From Fidelibacterota bacterium (GTDB lineage: Bacteria; Fidelibacterota; Marinisomatia; Marinisomatales; TCS55), in NCBI GenBank assembly GCA_012964665.1, contig DTTO01000002.1:1-49685 (forward strand): 49,685 nt of DNA, written 5' to 3'. Of the stretch, positions 32,611 to 43,095 are shown in pieces. Below the pieces are notes generated by a model. It was not told where the DNA came from. It was given only the letters and a program-made list of their open reading frames with translations, and searched no databases. The translations under genes were made by a program, and so were the position numbers. Numbering within the stretch: the stretch's first letter is position 1; each line of letters opens with the position of its first letter.

Positions 32611-33930
32611 TTATGAATTCAAGCGTTCTTTGAAAAAAAGAAAATAGACTGGAATTCCTGTGAGCACAAAGGCCAAGTCCTGAACGGATTTATCCGTTTC
32701 ATAGAAAAACCTTAGCAGAACCAGCCCGATAATACCGACCAAATAGATTGTACCTAGAATCTGATAGTAAGGTAATTGGTATCCATCCTTATTTCCTGCC
32801 TCTGAGTTACGAAATTTGAAAAACGCAACCGTCGTGAAACCGTAAAAGATAAGAACTGCAAACACCATACCGCTTACAATTGTCTCAAAGTTCTGTCGTA
32901 CTAAGATAAGCACAATCCCCCATATACAATGGGCAATGATCGCATGAGTCGGAGTTTGAAACTTTGGATGAACATGATCCAGCCATTTAAACATAAGCCC
33001 ATCCCGTGCCATGGCATAATACACTCGACTCGCAGACATCATGGTTCCATTGATACTACCGGTTGCGGAGATGATCACCATAATAGAGATCAATCCAGCA
33101 CCCATATTGCCAAATAAAGCCACAGCCGTATCAGATGCTATGATAGTACTCGATCGCATTCCTTCCAATCCAATAACTGTATGATATAATAGATTTGTAC
33201 TTAAATAAAGCAGGGCAATTAATAACATCCCATAGAGCATAGATAGGGGAATCACTTTTTTTGGTTCTTTCATTTCACCGGCCACATATCCAACCCGATC
33301 CCATCCGATAAAAGAGAAAAGCACCAACATGAGTGCAGCCACTACATTACCTGTAGGGCCAAGCGTGGCGGTGGCATGGGCGGATTCTGACAATTTTGCA
33401 AAATCACCATTTATTATGATTAGCCCCATGATCGCAAATAGCAAAAGGCCACCAATTTTTATGGATGAAGAAAATTTGTTATAAAGACTGGCCCGTTCAA
33501 CACCAATATAATTAATGGCACCAAAAATAATAATTACCGTAATGGCAACTAAATTTTTTTCAAGTTGGTCCATCGGGATGAAATAGCCAATATAATTGGC
33601 CGAAATCAAACTTAAACCCGCTGCAGGGCTGGTTCGAATTATGAACAATTGAGCCCACCCAAATAAAAAGCCCCAAAAGGGGCCAAATGCTTTTTCTATA
33701 TAAATATACTCACCGCCGGTATTTGGGAAGCGGCATCCCAATTCTGCATAAATCAGTGACCCAACATAAACAAAAATAGCTACCCCAACCCATAGCACAA
33801 TGATAACTGAAAAAGAATCCAAGTAACCAGCAATAACCTGAGGTGTAGCAAAAATTCCTGAACCGATCGTGATCCCTATCAGAAGGGAAATTCCATCAAA
33901 GAGTCCGAGAGACTTTTTAAGTTTGGTCAT
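32611..33930 (-). CDS. APC-superfamily amino acid permease
   Basis: Inner-membrane transporter of 439 residues with about 12 hydrophobic helices. The first helix carries the substrate-binding GITIGSGIFATP motif of the LAT/APC family, followed by the conserved ALxYAELGCRFPNTGGEYIYI-like stretch. It probably exchanges or imports neutral amino acids. It lies between the exported amidohydrolase and the D-aminopeptidase, which suits uptake of the amino acids those enzymes release. The 115-base gap after the M55 gene shows no feature. Confidence 0.88.
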   Translation of the reverse strand: MTKLKKSLGLFDGISLLIGITIGSGIFATPQVIAGYLDSFSVIIVLWVGVAIFVYVGSLIYAELGCRFPNTGGEYIYIEKAFGPFWGFLFGWAQLFIIRTSPAAGLSLISANYIGYFIPMDQLEKNLVAITVIIIFGAINYIGVERASLYNKFSSSIKIGGLLLFAIMGLIIINGDFAKLSESAHATATLGPTGNVVAALMLVLFSFIGWDRVGYVAGEMKEPKKVIPLSMLYGMLLIALLYLSTNLLYHTVIGLEGMRSSTIIASDTAVALFGNMGAGLISIMVIISATGSINGTMMSASRVYYAMARDGLMFKWLDHVHPKFQTPTHAIIAHCIWGIVLILVRQNFETIVSGMVFAVLIFYGFTTVAFFKFRNSEAGNKDGYQLPYYQILGTIYLVGIIGLVLLRFFYETDKSVQDLAFVLTGIPVYFLFFKERLNS

Positions 33931-34045: not shown

Positions 34046-34930
34046 TCACGGTTTCACATACTTATACATCAATCGTATCAAGGAATATGCTTCTTGCATA
34101 TTTTTTGCCGTGTATCCTACGGTATAACCATCCACCCTATCCATTCCTGGTATTGCCTGTAATACTTCTGCTTGGATCGTACTGGAAAATTTCAATTTTA
34201 TTTGGATTGAATTTTTATTTTTTAATGGTTTTATTTTTTTGAGTTTTTTCAATGCACGCTCGGTTGCAGCAAATAATTCCCTTTGCACCAATTCACCATG
34301 TTTCAGCCGGGCAACCTGTGCTGTTTCAGCCGTTTTGGTCGCCACCAATTCACAGTTGACCAATTCACCAAACTGTGTTGTGAAAACATCATCACCAGCT
34401 GCCAAAATGACTGGCACATTTAATTCACCCGCAAAAAATGCATTTAATCCACCTTCACCAACTTCAATCCCATTCAACCACAAACCCTTTACGGATCCAG
34501 ATCCGGTATGGGCTAAGAATCCCCTAGGTGTTCCAGCCCGAGCATGGTAACCTAAAAAAATTGCTGCATCAAAACTGTCATCCAAGCCTTGAACCATTCC
34601 GAATGGTTTTTTATTCCCTTGGATATATACTACCCTTGGATCCAATTGCTGATGAATAAGGTTTTGCATATCACCGTGAGAATCGTTAACTAGAATTTCC
34701 GATGGACCATTTTTAAATATGGCTTTCACCACTGCATTAACTTCATCTGTCATTAACTGCCGACCAACGTTATAATCTTTTCCACCATGACGGGTCATTT
34801 CACTAGTCCCAATACCACCGATACCTTCCATATCCACTGAAATAAAAATCTTTAATTGTTTGGCGCCAAGTATCATACCTTGGCATAAAAGAAATACAAT
34901 AAAGAAAACTCGGTATAATTTAGTTAGCAT
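34046..34930 (-). CDS. dppA: M55-family D-aminopeptidase (DppA-like), exported
   Basis: Zinc D-aminopeptidase related to Bacillus DppA, which releases D-Ala and D-Gly type residues. About 294 residues. Unlike DppA it begins with a signal peptide (about 1-22). The metal and active-site motifs are intact: SVDMEG, VNDSHGDM, FLGYHARAG, and FLAHTG, where the His aligns with the catalytic His of DppA. Later GEGGLNAFFAG and LAAGDD also match. A GTG one codon upstream is possible, but the ATG at 34930 is preferred. It starts 5 bases after the amidohydrolase stop. Confidence 0.93.
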   Translation of the reverse strand: MLTKLYRVFFIVFLLCQGMILGAKQLKIFISVDMEGIGGIGTSEMTRHGGKDYNVGRQLMTDEVNAVVKAIFKNGPSEILVNDSHGDMQNLIHQQLDPRVVYIQGNKKPFGMVQGLDDSFDAAIFLGYHARAGTPRGFLAHTGSGSVKGLWLNGIEVGEGGLNAFFAGELNVPVILAAGDDVFTTQFGELVNCELVATKTAETAQVARLKHGELVQRELFAATERALKKLKKIKPLKNKNSIQIKLKFSSTIQAEVLQAIPGMDRVDGYTVGYTAKNMQEAYSLIRLMYKYVKP

Positions 34931-34935
34931 CACTT

Positions 34936-36147
34936 TTAATCTTTTCCAAAGGGGAGCCGATTAAGTCCAATTTGACCATTGCTCATAACAAAAACTACAT
35001 CTTGAATTGTACGAATATCTTCTAAAGGATTTTTTGTGATGACGATTAAATCCGCTTCTTTTCCCACTTCAACTGTACCTGTCTTATTGGATATTTGTAA
35101 TAATTCTGCACCAACAATCGTTGCTGATTGGATCGCATCCATGGGTTTCATCCCTAAGCGCACAAAATTGACAATTTCCATTCCAACACGCGTAGTACTA
35201 TTTGGCCCATATCCCGTATCCGCACCTGTGACAATTTTAATTCCTAAATCGTAGGCCATTGTTACCGTATTTTCTAAAGCAGCCAGCATATGCTGTCCTC
35301 GAATAAATAAGACCGGGTTATCATAATCCCCGCCTGGTTCAGTTAGATCAACAACTGTTGTAAATGTTGGAACAAGATATGTGCCCATTTTTTTCATCAG
35401 TTTTAATGATTTCTCGCTGAGATAGGTCCCGTGCTCGATACTTCTTACTCCTGCTTTTATGGCAGCATAACCTCCTTCATCTCCATGCGCATGGGCCATG
35501 ACAGGGATATCGTATTTTTTTGCCTCATCTACAATTATCTTTAGTTGTGCTTCTGTATATGTTTGCTTCCGCGGATCTGTATGGGGAAGTCCTGCCCGTT
35601 CAGTACCTCTCGTTTTGATAAAATCAACACCATGGTCCGCATTGACACGGACAATTGTTCTTAGCGCGTTTTCCGAATGAATCCCATCTTTAAGCGCACC
35701 TAAGCGTGGATCAGCGAGAATTGTCTCACCTAAATTGGGTGTCACAAATACACCAGCAGCAACAATATCAGGGCCAATAAATTGTGAAGCCTTAACCATC
35801 TCACGGATCGCTACATCTTGATAATTAGGCGTACTTGCACTTCTGGCCGTGGTCACACCTGACTCCATAGCACGCCTAGCAGCATCCAAGGAACGGATAT
35901 GGGTATGTGCATCGATAAAACCTGGTAGTAACACCATACCATTCAAATCAATGATTTGATAGTTTGCTGATACCTTCCCTTGTTTTTTAATAGATACAAT
36001 TTTCCCATTGGAGACTAAAACAGTCATATTAGACTGAAGCTTTGGACTATACCCATCAATGAGATTGGCATTAATTAGCCCATAATCTTTTTGCTGAGCA
36101 GTAAGTAAGATGGTAGTAAGTAAACAGAGAGGTAGTATTCTATTCAT
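34936..36147 (-). CDS. Exported amidohydrolase (imidazolonepropionase/dipeptidase-like)
   Basis: Protein of 403 residues with a signal peptide (NRILPLCLLTTILLTA). The amidohydrolase core is complete: HTH in GFIDAHTHIRS, the segment VDFIKTRGTERAG that may supply the bridging carbamylated Lys, His ligands in VMAHAHGDEG and SIEHGTYL, and the Asp in VTGADTGYG. The C-terminal beta strand VGKEADLIVITKNPLEDI is typical. Exported members of this group include Xaa-Pro and Lys/Arg dipeptidases, but substrate cannot be called. It directly precedes dppA. Confidence 0.88.
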   Translation of the reverse strand: MNRILPLCLLTTILLTAQQKDYGLINANLIDGYSPKLQSNMTVLVSNGKIVSIKKQGKVSANYQIIDLNGMVLLPGFIDAHTHIRSLDAARRAMESGVTTARSASTPNYQDVAIREMVKASQFIGPDIVAAGVFVTPNLGETILADPRLGALKDGIHSENALRTIVRVNADHGVDFIKTRGTERAGLPHTDPRKQTYTEAQLKIIVDEAKKYDIPVMAHAHGDEGGYAAIKAGVRSIEHGTYLSEKSLKLMKKMGTYLVPTFTTVVDLTEPGGDYDNPVLFIRGQHMLAALENTVTMAYDLGIKIVTGADTGYGPNSTTRVGMEIVNFVRLGMKPMDAIQSATIVGAELLQISNKTGTVEVGKEADLIVITKNPLEDIRTIQDVVFVMSNGQIGLNRLPFGKD

Positions 36148-36796: not shown

Positions 36797-37825
36797 ATGA
36801 AAGCACTAGTAAAAAAATCACCAGAACAGGGAATTTGGATCGAAGATGTTCCTATTCCGGAATGCGGTACCAACGACGTTAAAATAAAAATTTCCCATAC
36901 AGCTATTTGCGGGACAGATTTGCAGATATATAAATGGAATGAATGGGCCCAACGGACTTTGGAACTGCCATTAATTACTGGTCATGAATTTGTAGGAATT
37001 GTAGAAGAGATTGGCCCGGGCGTTACTCATTATAAACCAGGAGACCGCGTTTCTGGAGAGGGACACATCACTTGCGGATATTGTCGTAACTGCCGTGCTG
37101 GGAAACGTCACCTTTGTCACAAGACTATTGGGGTGGGAATTCAACGTGCAGGTGCTTTTGCAGAATACCTTGTTATCCCTGAATCCAATGTTTGGCCAAT
37201 CCATGATGATATTCCCTCTGAGATCGCCGCATTCTTTGATCCATTCGGAAATGCGATACACACTGCCCTATCCTATGAATTGGTCGGGGAAGATGTCCTG
37301 ATTACCGGTGCAGGACCTATTGGAATTATGGCCACTGCCATCTGCAAATTTGTTGGTGCAAGGAATGTGGTGATTACCGATGTGAATGAATACCGGCTGA
37401 ACCTTGCGAAAAAATTGGGTGCCACGAAAACGATAAATATCTCCAAAGAAAATATTCGGGACTCTTTTGATGAATTGAATATGGTCAATGGCTTTGATGT
37501 AGGATTAGAGGTATCAGGAAACCCCTCTGCTTTTAAAGATATGCTTGAACATATGTACCATGGGGGGCGTATTGCCCTACTAGGACTTTTGCCAAAATCC
37601 ACTCAGATCAATTGGGATGATATCATATTTAAAGGTCTCCATGTTAAGGGGATTTACGGCAGAGAGATGTATGAAACATGGTATAAAATGACCCAGATGC
37701 TACGTGGTGGTTTAGATATTTCTGATGTGCTTACCCATCAGATTCCCATAAATGATTTTCAAAAAGGGTTTGAGATCATGGAATCAGGCAATTGTGGCAA
37801 AATTGTACTCGAATGGAATGCGTAA
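36797..37825 (+). CDS. tdh: L-threonine 3-dehydrogenase
   Basis: Zinc- and NAD-dependent enzyme that oxidises L-threonine to 2-amino-3-oxobutyrate. The 342 residues match E. coli Tdh closely. The catalytic zinc site includes the Cys of [10 protein letters not shown] and the His-Glu of GHEFVG. The structural zinc cysteines are in [15 protein letters not shown]. The NAD fold has GAGPIGIMA. The next gene, kbl, begins directly after the tdh stop and takes the product onward. Confidence 0.97.
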
Positions 37826-39013
37826 ATGAGTGATTCAAAACAAATTTATGAAGATACTCTTTCTCGAATAGAGGCAGAAGGGCTATACAAGAAAGAACGA
37901 ATCATTACAACACCTCAAAGCGTAGGTATTTCTACCAAAGAAGGCGGTCAGGTTCTCAACTTTTGCGCTAACAATTATCTTGGTCTAGCCGATAATCCAG
38001 ACGTGATCTCTGCGGCCAAAGACGCACTAGACAACCACGGATTTGGCATGGCTTCCGTACGATTTATCTGCGGAACTCAAGACCTTCACAAAAAATTAGA
38101 ATCTAAGATTTCACAATTTTTTGGTACAGATGATTCTATCCTATATACATCTTGTTTCGATGCCAATGGAGGATTGTTTGAAACCTTATTGACTTCTGAA
38201 GATGCGGTAATCTCTGATGCATTGAACCATGCTTCTATCATTGATGGAATAAGACTTTGTAAAGCACAGCGATACCGTTATGCTAATTCCGATATGTCTG
38301 ACCTTGAAGCAAAACTAAAGGATGCTCAAAATGCTCGTTTGAGACTCATTGCTACAGATGGTGTTTTTTCCATGGATGGCTATATCGCTAAACTGGATGA
38401 GATCACAGTATTAGCCGAAAAATATGATGCTATGCTGATGGTGGATGATTCTCATGCCACCGGTTTTATTGGTAAAACCGGACGTGGTTCAGCGGAACAC
38501 AGGGGCGTTATGGATAAGGTTGACGTTTGGACCTCCACTTTAGGCAAGGCTCTTGGCGGCGCTTCCGGAGGTTTTACCACTGGTAGAAAGGAAATTATAG
38601 ATTTACTGCGCCAACGTTCACGTCCCTACATTTTTTCAAATACGGTGGCACCGGCAATTGTGGCAGCTGGCATTAAAGTTTTTGACATGCTTTCTGGCAC
38701 CACCGCTTTAAGAGACAAACTGGAAGAAAATACTATTTATTTCCGAGAAAAAATGACTGCTGCCGGTTTTGATATAAAAGAAGGTTCACACCCCATTGTC
38801 CCAATTATGCTTTATGATGCAATGCTGGCTCAAAAAATGGCTGCAACTCTTTTGGATGAAAACATTTATGTAATTGGTTTTTTCTTTCCCGTGGTACCAA
38901 AAGGAGAAGCACGAATCCGTGTTCAAATTTCCGCAGGAATGGAAAGAGAACATTTAGATCGTGCCATAGCCGCTTTCACAAAAGTAGGGCGAGACCTGGG
39001 GGTACTCTCCTGA
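37826..39013 (+). CDS. kbl: 2-amino-3-ketobutyrate CoA ligase (glycine C-acetyltransferase)
   Basis: PLP enzyme that cleaves 2-amino-3-oxobutyrate with CoA into glycine and acetyl-CoA. Length 395. The PLP lysine is K241 in [13 protein letters not shown]. The Asp-His pair VDDSHATGF and the [14 protein letters not shown] stretch are conserved. It is fused in tandem to tdh (zero-base spacing), the standard threonine-to-glycine pathway. The stop is one base from the start of the dioxygenase gene downstream. Confidence 0.97.
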
Positions 39014-39014
39014 A

Positions 39015-40133
39015 TTGAATCTTGCTGATTATGATATAGATCCAAAACGAGGATTCCTCCCAAATCCTGACCCGATAACTAATCTTCCACAACAATATAA
39101 ATCCTGGGATGAACTTGGTGCAACTATGCCTCTATTGCTTGCAGGCGGAAAATTTCGCATTTCCGTTCGCAACTTGCCCATGCTTGATTCTAATCGATTA
39201 AATGATGGGCCTGAATTAGAACGGGCCATGATGCTTTTATCGATGTTTGCTAATGCTTACATTAATTGGGGAGAGAAAATTAAAAAATCCATTCCATCCA
39301 ATCTAGCTGTTGCTCTTTGGGAAGTGGCACATCGATTAGGTCGTCAACCCATCTCAAGTCACGCATCCATCGTCCTAAATAATTGGAAACGAATTGATAC
39401 GAGAGGGCCTCTAATTCCAGAAAATTTAGATACGGTACAAAATTTTTTAGGCGGCAAAGATGAGGACTGGTTTTTTCTGTCAACTGTAGGAGTGGAATCT
39501 GCTGGTGGCGAAGTACCAAAAATACTCATAGCTGCTATCGATGCTATTGAAACTGATAATTCTAAATTGCTGCATAAACATCTGGTAAGGCTATCAACTG
39601 CAATTGAAAAGATGCTGGTTGCCTTGAAACGTATGTATGAACATTGTGAACCTAAATTATTTTTTGAGCGCATTCGTCCATTTTTAACCGGATGGGAGCC
39701 AAAGGGTGTTATTTATGAAGGTATCGATACCAAACCAAAGATCTTTATTGGTGGAAGTGCGGCTCAAAGTTCGCTGCTTCAGGCTATCGATTCTGGCCTT
39801 GGGATTCAACACAAAAGTCAGGCCTCTGGCCCATTTCTAGCAGAAATGCGAAAATATATGCCGGCCAATCATCGTACTTTTTTAAGTCAACTTGACGCGG
39901 CTCCATCCATATCTAAATATGTAGAAAAAATCAATGATACCCTCCTATCAAATACCTTCAACTCATGTGTTTCACTATTAAATACCTTCCGCCAAAAGCA
40001 TTTAGAAATGGCTATAACCTATATTTCAAAACAGGCTAATGATGAAAAAGCCGCCACGGGAACTGGTGGAACTGAATTTGTTCAATTTCTTTCGAAAGCA
40101 AAATCCGAGACGGACTCTTCAAAAATAAACTAA
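39015..40133 (+). CDS. ido: Indoleamine 2,3-dioxygenase-like haem protein
   Basis: IDO opens the indole ring of tryptophan with O2 to give N-formylkynurenine. This 372-residue protein follows the IDO pattern throughout. The proximal haem ligand is H329 in FRQKHLEMA (human H346). F216, F217 and R221 in KLFFERIRPFL match human F226, F227 and R231. The GGSAAQSS motif and the mobile GTGG loop (GTGGTEF) are kept. Other landmarks are YMPANHRTFL and VIYEG. Start is TTG, one base after kbl; a stop lies upstream in frame and no ATG fits. No signal peptide is seen. Bacterial homologues often differ in substrate or rate, so tryptophan activity is inferred. Confidence 0.88.
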   Translation: MNLADYDIDPKRGFLPNPDPITNLPQQYKSWDELGATMPLLLAGGKFRISVRNLPMLDSNRLNDGPELERAMMLLSMFANAYINWGEKIKKSIPSNLAVALWEVAHRLGRQPISSHASIVLNNWKRIDTRGPLIPENLDTVQNFLGGKDEDWFFLSTVGVESAGGEVPKILIAAIDAIETDNSKLLHKHLVRLSTAIEKMLVALKRMYEHCEPKLFFERIRPFLTGWEPKGVIYEGIDTKPKIFIGGSAAQSSLLQAIDSGLGIQHKSQASGPFLAEMRKYMPANHRTFLSQLDAAPSISKYVEKINDTLLSNTFNSCVSLLNTFRQKHLEMAITYISKQANDEKAATGTGGTEFVQFLSKAKSETDSSKIN

Positions 40134-40267
40134 TTTGCGGTATCGTTTTCAACAGTGATTCTATCGTTGTATTAGTTATATCTAATATAAATAGGATATC
40201 CATTGCTCTCCAGAAGGGTAGAAAGGTATATTCCCCGGCTTTTTTAAGGCTATAATTATAACATTTT

Positions 40268-42169
40268 ATGAACAGTAAACTAACACCCAGATTATTGATT
40301 ATTGGTCTCATTCTCATATGGGCAATATGGGCCATTTGGCCAACCATTAGGTACCAGGGCCTATCCGATGCTGAAAAGGAGAGTATGCGGGAGGAAGGAA
40401 CAATTGAGCAAATCGAATCACGCACCATCAAACAGGGACTGGATCTTAAGGGTGGAATGTATATCGTCCTTGAAGTAGACCTGCCAACCCTGATGGAAAC
40501 CCTTGCAATAAATAAAGATAATAGATTCAACCAATCAATCACTTCCATAAGGGACCAACTGACAAGAACACCGGAAGCTGATTTTTTCACTTTATTCTCG
40601 TCAGCCTCCAATGATAACAATCTCAAGTTATCCCGTTACTACTATGATTTTGGTTCCAGTAATGAGGATATCCTTACCGCACTTGGAGAAGAATCGGAAG
40701 ACGCAATCAATCGTGTTTTGGAAATTCTTCAAAACCGTGTAGACCAATTCGGTGTCGCAGAACCAACAATTCAAAAACAGGGTAGCCAGCGCATCATTGT
40801 TGAACTAGCAGGCGTTCAGGATTCTGAAAGAGCGCGTTCCCTTTTGGAAAGCACTGCACTATTGGAATTCTTCCTGGTAAAAGATGTAAATACTACCAAT
40901 GAGATTCTGGTTAAAATTGATCAGGCTCTGAAAGGGGATGAAACCATTGCAGATGTTATAGAATCTGCATCAGTCGAAGAGGTAGAAGAAACAAAAGAAA
41001 GTAATGATCAAACTGTATCCGTTAGTGAATTGTTCGGTGAAACAGAAGAATTGGGCGCTTCATCTGACTCCGCAGTTGTTGATGAAGACATGTTCGCTGA
41101 GCGTCCTTTCTCTTCTATGCTGAGAAACCTTGGGCAGGCAATTGGTATTCCTGAAAAGAATGTTTATGCAGTTAAAAAGATTTTAGAGCGGCCAGAGGTT
41201 CGGGAAAAACTGGCTGCTGTTGGCGGTACTTTCATGTTTAGTCACAAAGTAGAAGAATATCCCCTTGTGGATGGTACGATTGAAAAAATGTACAGTCTGT
41301 ATTTGCTTGAAGACGAAGCAGAACTCACTGGCGGGGTAGTTGAAGAAGCAAAAGCAAATTTAGGTCCACAGGGATCTACCTCTGCCGGCCAACCTATTGT
41401 TAACCTGACAATGAACTCTGACGGCGCCCGTAAATGGTCGATTGTTACTGGATCCAATGTAGGCCGTCAGATTGCTATCGTTTTAGATAAAAAAGTGCAT
41501 ATGGCACCTAATATTAGGGAAAAAATTTCAGGTGGCGGAACCTTAATTGAAGGCTTTGCCAATATCAATGAAGCAAAGGATATCGCCATTGTTCTTAGAG
41601 CAGGTGCACTGCCGGCACCAGTGGACATTATTGAAGAAAGGGTTGTTGGTCCTTCACTCGGTGCTGATTCCATACGCCGTGGTACACAATCAGTACTCAT
41701 TGGTCTGGGCCTAGTTCTGATATTTATGTTGATTTATTACAAAGTTTCAGGATTGATTGCTGATTTTGCGTTGATTTGGAATATCGTTCTTGTTTTGGCT
41801 GTCCTCGCTTCTCTACAGGCAACACTCACGCTTCCAGGAATTGCAGGGTTGATTTTAACTGTAGGTATGTCCATCGACTCAAATGTTATTATCTTTGAAC
41901 GTATTCGAGAAGAATTGCGCAAAGGTAAAACACCGCGTTCTGCAGTTGACGGCGGTTATGACCGTGCGCTAACTGCTATTATCGATGCTAATGTAACAAC
42001 TTTGATTGCAGCACTGGTCTTGTGGCAGTTTGGTACGGGTCCTGTTCGTGGATTCGCGACAGTACTTTTTTGGGGAATACTAATATCCATGTTTACTGCT
42101 ATTTTTGTAACCCGTACTATCTTTAACCTTTTCACCAATCGCAAAAACTTAAGCAAGTTGAGTATATGA
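40268..42169 (+). CDS. secD: Protein-export membrane protein SecD
   Basis: SecD uses the proton gradient to pull preproteins across the membrane. 633 residues. Transmembrane helix 1 is at about 9-25, a large periplasmic region spans about 30-465, and five helices close the protein. Family motifs are present: GLDLKGGMYIVLEVD, NRVDQFGVAEPTIQKQG, and the C-terminal GMSIDSNVIIFERIREELRKGK. An acidic, low-complexity insertion (about 220-280, many Glu, Ser and Asp) interrupts the periplasmic domain. The ATG has no clear Shine-Dalgarno. A TATAAT stands at 40251. The 134-base gap upstream shows no gene. Confidence 0.96.
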   Translation: MNSKLTPRLLIIGLILIWAIWAIWPTIRYQGLSDAEKESMREEGTIEQIESRTIKQGLDLKGGMYIVLEVDLPTLMETLAINKDNRFNQSITSIRDQLTRTPEADFFTLFSSASNDNNLKLSRYYYDFGSSNEDILTALGEESEDAINRVLEILQNRVDQFGVAEPTIQKQGSQRIIVELAGVQDSERARSLLESTALLEFFLVKDVNTTNEILVKIDQALKGDETIADVIESASVEEVEETKESNDQTVSVSELFGETEELGASSDSAVVDEDMFAERPFSSMLRNLGQAIGIPEKNVYAVKKILERPEVREKLAAVGGTFMFSHKVEEYPLVDGTIEKMYSLYLLEDEAELTGGVVEEAKANLGPQGSTSAGQPIVNLTMNSDGARKWSIVTGSNVGRQIAIVLDKKVHMAPNIREKISGGGTLIEGFANINEAKDIAIVLRAGALPAPVDIIEERVVGPSLGADSIRRGTQSVLIGLGLVLIFMLIYYKVSGLIADFALIWNIVLVLAVLASLQATLTLPGIAGLILTVGMSIDSNVIIFERIREELRKGKTPRSAVDGGYDRALTAIIDANVTTLIAALVLWQFGTGPVRGFATVLFWGILISMFTAIFVTRTIFNLFTNRKNLSKLSI

Positions 42170-43095
42170 GAATTATACAAGAAACCAATATCGATTTTAT
42201 ACGACAGAGAAAGGTTTCCTTCATACTTTCTGCATTTGTGATTCTGGCCGGCATAATTTCCCTGGTGATCAATGGCGGACCTAAACTAAGTATTGACTTT
42301 AAAGGCGGTACTTTAGTCTCCGTTCAATATACAGAAGCCATGGATGTAACCACTGTGCGTACTGCCATGGGGAATGTAAATATCGACGGACAATCATTTG
42401 ATTTTAGTCGCGAAGAGATCAAACATTTTGGTGGTCCTAGCGCTATATTAATTCGTGTACCACACATTGAGGGCGCACCGCAAAATTTTGCCCAAAAAAT
42501 TGTTGATCATCTTTATAGTGCATTTCCTGAAAAAGTACCTGAAAGTAAAACGGATTTTATTTTAGGGAAGGGAACGGTTAGCCCAAAAATAGGTTCAGAA
42601 TTAAGTGGAAAAGCAGTCATGGCTATCATATCCGCCCTGGGGTTAATTCTTCTGTACATTTCCATTCGGTTTGAATTTAGATTCGCATTAGGTGCCATCG
42701 CTGCTTTGGTACATGACGTATTAATAACATTAGGGCTTTTTTCACTTCTGGGGTATGAAATCAGTTTACCCATTATTGCGGCATTTCTTACTATCGTTGG
42801 TTATTCGCTAAACGATACAATTGTTATCTTTGACCGTATTCGTGAAAATGCAAAAGCTTCCAAACGGGAAGCATATCATGGGGTTGTAAATCGAAGTATT
42901 AATGATTCCCTTTCCCGAACTGTTGTCACATCTCTCACAACATTTCTTGTAATATTTATACTTTGGCTATTTGGTGGCGAGGTCATCCACAATTTTGCCC
43001 TGGCTATGATCATTGGAGTTATTGTAGGGACTTATTCATCAATTTATATTGCCAGTCCAATTGTGGTTCAACTTCATGAAAATGCCGCTAAATAA
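42166..43095 (+). CDS. secF: Protein-export membrane protein SecF
   Basis: Partner of SecD in the Sec translocon, 309 residues with six transmembrane helices. Conserved stretches are LSIDFKGGTLVSVQ, IGSELSGKAVMAIISAL, and NDTIVIFDRIREN in helix 5. The start overlaps the secD stop by 4 bases. A strong terminator follows 15 bases after the stop. Confidence 0.97.
   Translation: MRIIQETNIDFIRQRKVSFILSAFVILAGIISLVINGGPKLSIDFKGGTLVSVQYTEAMDVTTVRTAMGNVNIDGQSFDFSREEIKHFGGPSAILIRVPHIEGAPQNFAQKIVDHLYSAFPEKVPESKTDFILGKGTVSPKIGSELSGKAVMAIISALGLILLYISIRFEFRFALGAIAALVHDVLITLGLFSLLGYEISLPIIAAFLTIVGYSLNDTIVIFDRIRENAKASKREAYHGVVNRSINDSLSRTVVTSLTTFLVIFILWLFGGEVIHNFALAMIIGVIVGTYSSIYIASPIVVQLHENAAK

Follow-up and report, generated by a model that had tools for sequence, protein, structure and literature searches.

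An IDO1-type indoleamine 2,3-dioxygenase gene behind tdh-kbl in a Marinimicrobia genome that also encodes a TDO-based kynurenine operon

Introduction

The 49,685 nucleotide stretch of DNA analysed here (the window) belongs to a Ca. Neomarinimicrobiota (SAR406) metagenome-assembled genome (MAG), designated G000, an assembly in 75 contigs that total 1.59 Mb, with a completeness of 75.6% and a contamination of 0.18%. It carries a homologue of indoleamine 2,3-dioxygenase (IDO) directly behind tdh and kbl, two genes of threonine breakdown. This raises the question of whether the enzyme belongs functionally with threonine catabolism, or whether it would act in tryptophan breakdown or on a different substrate.

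Results

The ido product is a predicted IDO1-type haem dioxygenase

Comparison of the ido product with Pfam revealed one family only, PF01231 (350 bits, E 1.7e-104, cut-off 26), with residues 3–367 of 372 aligned to positions 2–410 of the 412 of the profile; the tryptophan 2,3-dioxygenase (TDO) family, PF03301, which is a separate family with the same predicted reaction, gave no match. A search of the PDB returned only IDO1 and IDO2 (best E 6e-60), and identity to the animal proteins was 34–37% over the whole length. An AlphaFold model built with eight related sequences as input (pLDDT 86.7, pTM 0.88) was aligned by Foldseek to human IDO1 and IDO2 structures with TM-scores of 0.91–0.94.

The first-pass annotation had reported F216, F217, R221, H329 and a GTGG loop as conserved, which made the protein look catalytically able. 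An alignment confirmed that these residues, with the GTGG loop at G349–G352, correspond to human F226, F227, R231, H346 (the proximal haem ligand) and G378–G381, so the protein is predicted to be catalytically competent. Human F163, G262-S263-A264 and D274 were also kept, and the substrate-binding residues R231, T379 and G262–A264 (human numbering) were all retained. Two pocket positions differed from the human enzyme (His in place of Y126, Thr in place of S167), and the kinetics could differ as a result; in the clade that contains human IDO1, every bacterial protein had His at position 126. The loop before GTGG was shorter than in animal IDO1/IDO2 (model residues 344–352, low confidence), and the gene further differs from the animal ones in its bacterial host and operonic position. 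A second active-site signature, Tyr126 with His167, was found in IDO-like proteins of Sphingobium, Methylocystis and haloarchaea and in long Marinimicrobia proteins.

A phylogeny of 20 sequences, one of the checks proposed at first pass, placed the five full-length Marinimicrobia IDOs in one clade (support 100/99). It was nested in a larger clade (100/100), which also held human IDO1 and the IDOs of Nonomuraea, Calditrichia, Latescibacterota and Ardenticatenaceae (Chloroflexota), apart from the divergent bacterial and the long IDO-like branches. The closest public match shared 95% identity over the whole protein and came from another Ca. Neomarinimicrobiota MAG (PBBH01000010.1). Tryptophan is degraded efficiently only by the IDO branch that includes mammals, fungi, Gemmatimonas and Streptomyces, some other bacterial and fungal branches having very low activity (PMC4217691). 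The window IDO presumably belongs to the efficient branch, judging from the human and actinobacterial members of its clade. Its likeness to the IDOs of Gemmatimonas aurantiaca and Streptomyces scabiei (Yuasa et al. 2011, cited in PMC4217691) is thus drawn through human IDO1 and the Nonomuraea protein (L149).

Two further groups of homologues were observed. Three haloarchaeal plasmids (L164, L165 and L167) encoded an IDO homologue with 30–35% identity beside a kynureninase gene (kynU), two of them also with an alpha/beta hydrolase; unlike the window IDO, these proteins carried the second signature and adjoined no threonine genes. Many genomes of the Marinimicrobia genus g22, and also G075, encoded members of a divergent family of approximately 540 amino acids, which had GTGG and HRIDHY motifs and matched PF01231 at only 25–52 bits (Table 1).

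Table 1. Positions of the features discussed in the text
Feature	Location	Strand	Basis or remark
tdh, L-threonine 3-dehydrogenase	window 36797–37825	+	First gene of the unit; NCBIfam TIGR00692 487.6 bits (cut-off 458), NF003808 563 bits
kbl, glycine C-acetyltransferase	window 37826–39013	+	No gap after tdh; NCBIfam TIGR01822 685 bits (cut-off 493)
ido, IDO1-type indoleamine 2,3-dioxygenase	window 39015–40133	+	PF01231 350 bits; TTG start; 372 aa
Spacer and secD leader	window 40134–40267	+	Last part GGTATATTCCCCGGCTTTTTTAAGGCTATAAT similar, by eye, to the post-kbl spacer of ido-less congener G005
secD	window 40268–42169	+	Ancestral downstream neighbour of kbl; PF22599/PF02355/PF21760; synteny in relatives
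secF	window 42166–43095	+	PF02355 229 bits; synteny
PF04199 cyclase, candidate formamidase	C28 12380–13159	-	PF04199 only 33 bits; putative role from family and position
TDO	C28 11274–12380	-	Profile match 363 bits
SDR	C28 10486–11274	-	
ALDH	C28 9041–10486	-	Putative role from family and position
RidA-family protein	C28 8624–9034	-	Putative role from family and position
3-HAO	C28 8096–8614	-	Profile-supported equivalog
Amidohydrolase, ACMSD type	C28 7082–8089	-	Putative role from family and position
Kynureninase	C28 5835–7085	-	Equivalog 434 bits (cut-off 246)
Flavin monooxygenase, KMO type	C28 4508–5842	-	Putative role from family and position
Divergent IDO-like proteins, ~540 aa	L028:5123–6745; L027:219–1829; L029:5418–7040		

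Genetic organisation of the tdh-kbl-ido locus

Both tdh and kbl were true equivalogs, scoring above their NCBIfam cut-offs. The TTG start of ido was separated from the end of kbl by one base (39014), as first annotated; no other common start codon was present between the preceding in-frame stop and the first of the conserved motifs. Both the TTG and its spacing from kbl recurred in the independent MAG of a close congener (G002). No promoter-like match was found on the + strand near the kbl-ido junction, in a promoter and terminator scan that gave no more sites than shuffled sequences and was therefore uninformative. An Rfam search revealed no RNA elements near the operon. A gap of one base and no obvious promoter suggest read-through from tdh-kbl into ido, which is probably co-transcribed with kbl. 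Comparison of the window genome with G002, the one pair available, gave dN/dS values of 0.25 for ido, 0.05 for tdh, 0.13 for kbl and 0.27 for secD, which on this pair places ido under purifying selection. Upstream of tdh, 34,046–36,147 of the window (- strand) encoded an M55 D-aminopeptidase family protein and an amidohydrolase, adjoining an amino-acid permease-like ORF (32,611–33,930); these genes, possibly a peptide-use cluster, were partly found in ido-less congeners too.

The common order in relatives was tdh-kbl followed by secD-secF. None of the 18 kbl loci from relatives had ido behind kbl; secD came directly next in most of them (in G005 after 123 bp). The genomes G013, G020, G021 and G024 had another gene (YwiC-like or for a secreted protein) in the gap between kbl and secD. 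The order tdh-kbl-ido-secD was restricted to the window genome and G002, ido being carried by two of the 13 genomes of the genus. As G002 was 95% identical, its arrangement is not independent. The resemblance of the stretch before secD to the kbl-secD spacer of G005 (Table 1) indicates that the secD leader is older and that ido came to lie upstream of it, behind kbl. We propose that ido was acquired or moved by the lineage of these two genomes into the 3′-end of tdh-kbl. A conserved threonine-IDO operon was rejected on the synteny of the 18 loci.

Elsewhere in the phylum, ido was not beside tdh-kbl wherever its flanks were readable. In G065 (L022:8707–10693) it followed a KynB-like cyclase, the only PF04199 match of that genome; the kynurenine operon of G065 contained nadC and lacked a cyclase, so the candidate formamidase of this genome sits with ido. 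In G046 (L026:8586–9275) a KynB-like cyclase preceded a truncated ido without the C-terminal half that would hold the proximal His, and a TDO search of G046 gave no match. In G033, ido was found near genes for Phe/Tyr catabolism. The window genome and G033 shared 54% identity in IDO and 85% in TDO, and dS between G033 and G095 was 0.215 for ido and 1.9 for TDO. Both contrasts suggest that ido has moved from lineage to lineage; for the dS values, mis-binning of short contigs is an alternative.

A kynurenine operon on a separate contig

The first-pass annotation had found no kynurenine-pathway gene near ido. This held for the window, in which the neighbouring ORFs were scanned with profiles and the rest by eye, but not for the genome. 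Family searches revealed a nine-gene kynurenine operon on contig C28 (L100:4508–13159, - strand), in one direction and nearly gapless (Table 1), so that the idea of an IDO without an accompanying pathway was rejected. The kynureninase that the first-pass annotation had suggested looking for was present; for the kynurenine formamidase there was a candidate, the PF04199 cyclase, but its match was weak and no PDB relative of it was found. The operon was flanked by folD-zapA-pheT-like and cutA-K+ channel-leuS-like genes (names read by eye). In congener G001 (L105) both the operon and its flanks were the same, so that contig C28 can be assigned to the genus.

Searches of seven genomes gave no NadA, and NadC was confined to G065; these genomes are incomplete, and on this basis the kynurenine route of the window genome looks catabolic. 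A role in NAD synthesis within the genus was considered and left unsupported by these searches and by the ACMSD- and ALDH-type genes of C28, which are of catabolic type. A literature search on Marinimicrobia and kynurenine returned no relevant paper. As the operon includes TDO, the window IDO would be a second entry enzyme beside it.

IDO and TDO occur together

A full-length IDO1-type gene was found in five of 245 Marinimicrobia genomes (G000, G002, G033, G065 and G095), in agreement, for this phylum, with the earlier remark that bacterial IDO genes are uncommon. All five also encoded TDO. Outside the phylum, sequence similarity yielded a small sample of five further genomes that encode an IDO homologue; TDO was present in four of them, namely those of Calditrichia, Latescibacterota, Nonomuraea and Ardenticatenaceae. 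A review describes TDO and IDO as exclusive of each other in bacteria (PMC4191572), and the window genome, which has both, departs from that description. Taken as a rule, this exclusivity is contradicted by the nine genomes, which are not all independent and are mostly metagenome-assembled.

Discussion

We consider it moderately likely that the window gene encodes an accessory IDO, which in a haem-dependent reaction would insert O2 into L-tryptophan across the 2,3 bond of its indole ring and yield N-formylkynurenine. Expressed by read-through from the tdh-kbl transcript, it would feed the remote C28 operon as a second entry enzyme beside TDO: the cyclase would deformylate N-formylkynurenine, and KMO-like hydroxylation, kynureninase, 3-HAO, ACMSD-like decarboxylation and the ALDH and RidA steps would follow. 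The cyclase that adjoins ido in G065 and the kynU gene that does so in haloarchaea support a kynurenine route for IDO. Against an accessory role in L-tryptophan breakdown count the rarity of ido in the genus and the weak formamidase candidate; a strict need for IDO is also doubtful, because TDO already supplies the same reaction.

The presence of TDO sharpens the question of a different substrate. It is possible, though we hold it clearly less likely, that IDO acts on compounds outside the range of TDO, such as D-tryptophan, tryptamine-like compounds or other indoles, and leaves L-tryptophan to the TDO of C28. The wider indole specificity of the IDO family (PMC4217691, PMC4191572) and the two pocket changes are in keeping with this, as is the coexistence of the two enzymes in all five Marinimicrobia and four of the five other genomes; if the two were simply redundant, that redundancy would need to have been kept on many occasions. 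However, the substrate-binding residues are kept, the neighbours of ido in G065 and the haloarchaea point to kynurenine, and no neighbouring gene specific to another indole was found. A divided labour wherever both enzymes occur can be suggested as tentatively: TDO would take L-tryptophan in the kynurenine operon, and IDO would either take another indole such as D-tryptophan or work in a different oxygen or haem regime, controlled together with general amino-acid catabolism.

A selected joint threonine-tryptophan programme, in which ido would belong functionally with tdh-kbl, appears improbable. The one-base gap, the lack of a + strand promoter-like match and the same arrangement in G002 speak for it, but G002 is no independent case, ido is absent from all 18 other kbl loci, its readable flanks elsewhere in the phylum lack tdh-kbl, and four relatives have other genes in the same gap. 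The joint catabolic programme suggested in the first-pass annotation was therefore not borne out: with ido inserted at the 3′-end of tdh-kbl and probably read from its transcript, the link with threonine would be one of expression and position rather than pathway. Slightly more improbable still is a haem protein with little or no catalytic activity, or a short-lived passenger heading for loss. The patchy distribution, the G046 remnant and the very low activity of some IDO branches speak for this reading; the complete set of catalytic residues, the dN/dS of ido and its place with human IDO1, not among proteins with the His167-type signature, speak against it. A chimeric assembly or mis-binned contig is hardly conceivable: the genome is incomplete and fragmented, yet the same order and junction occur in the G002 MAG, the flanks are syntenic with the genus, the GC3 of ido lies within the range of the window ORFs and contamination is minimal. 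An artefact at kbl-ido-secD was accordingly rejected on the evidence of G002 and the congeneric flanks.

The window ido is thus a real, somewhat unusual gene from an established family. It came to adjoin the threonine-breakdown genes by insertion in a single lineage, and it is of interest mainly because it coexists with TDO. SAR406 is thereby shown to have an IDO1-type enzyme in the same genome as a complete kynurenine operon based on TDO, and the view that bacteria have either TDO or IDO (PMC4191572) fails in at least nine of the genomes examined, from five phyla. Why one cell keeps both enzymes is now a question that can be tested directly in simple expression systems.
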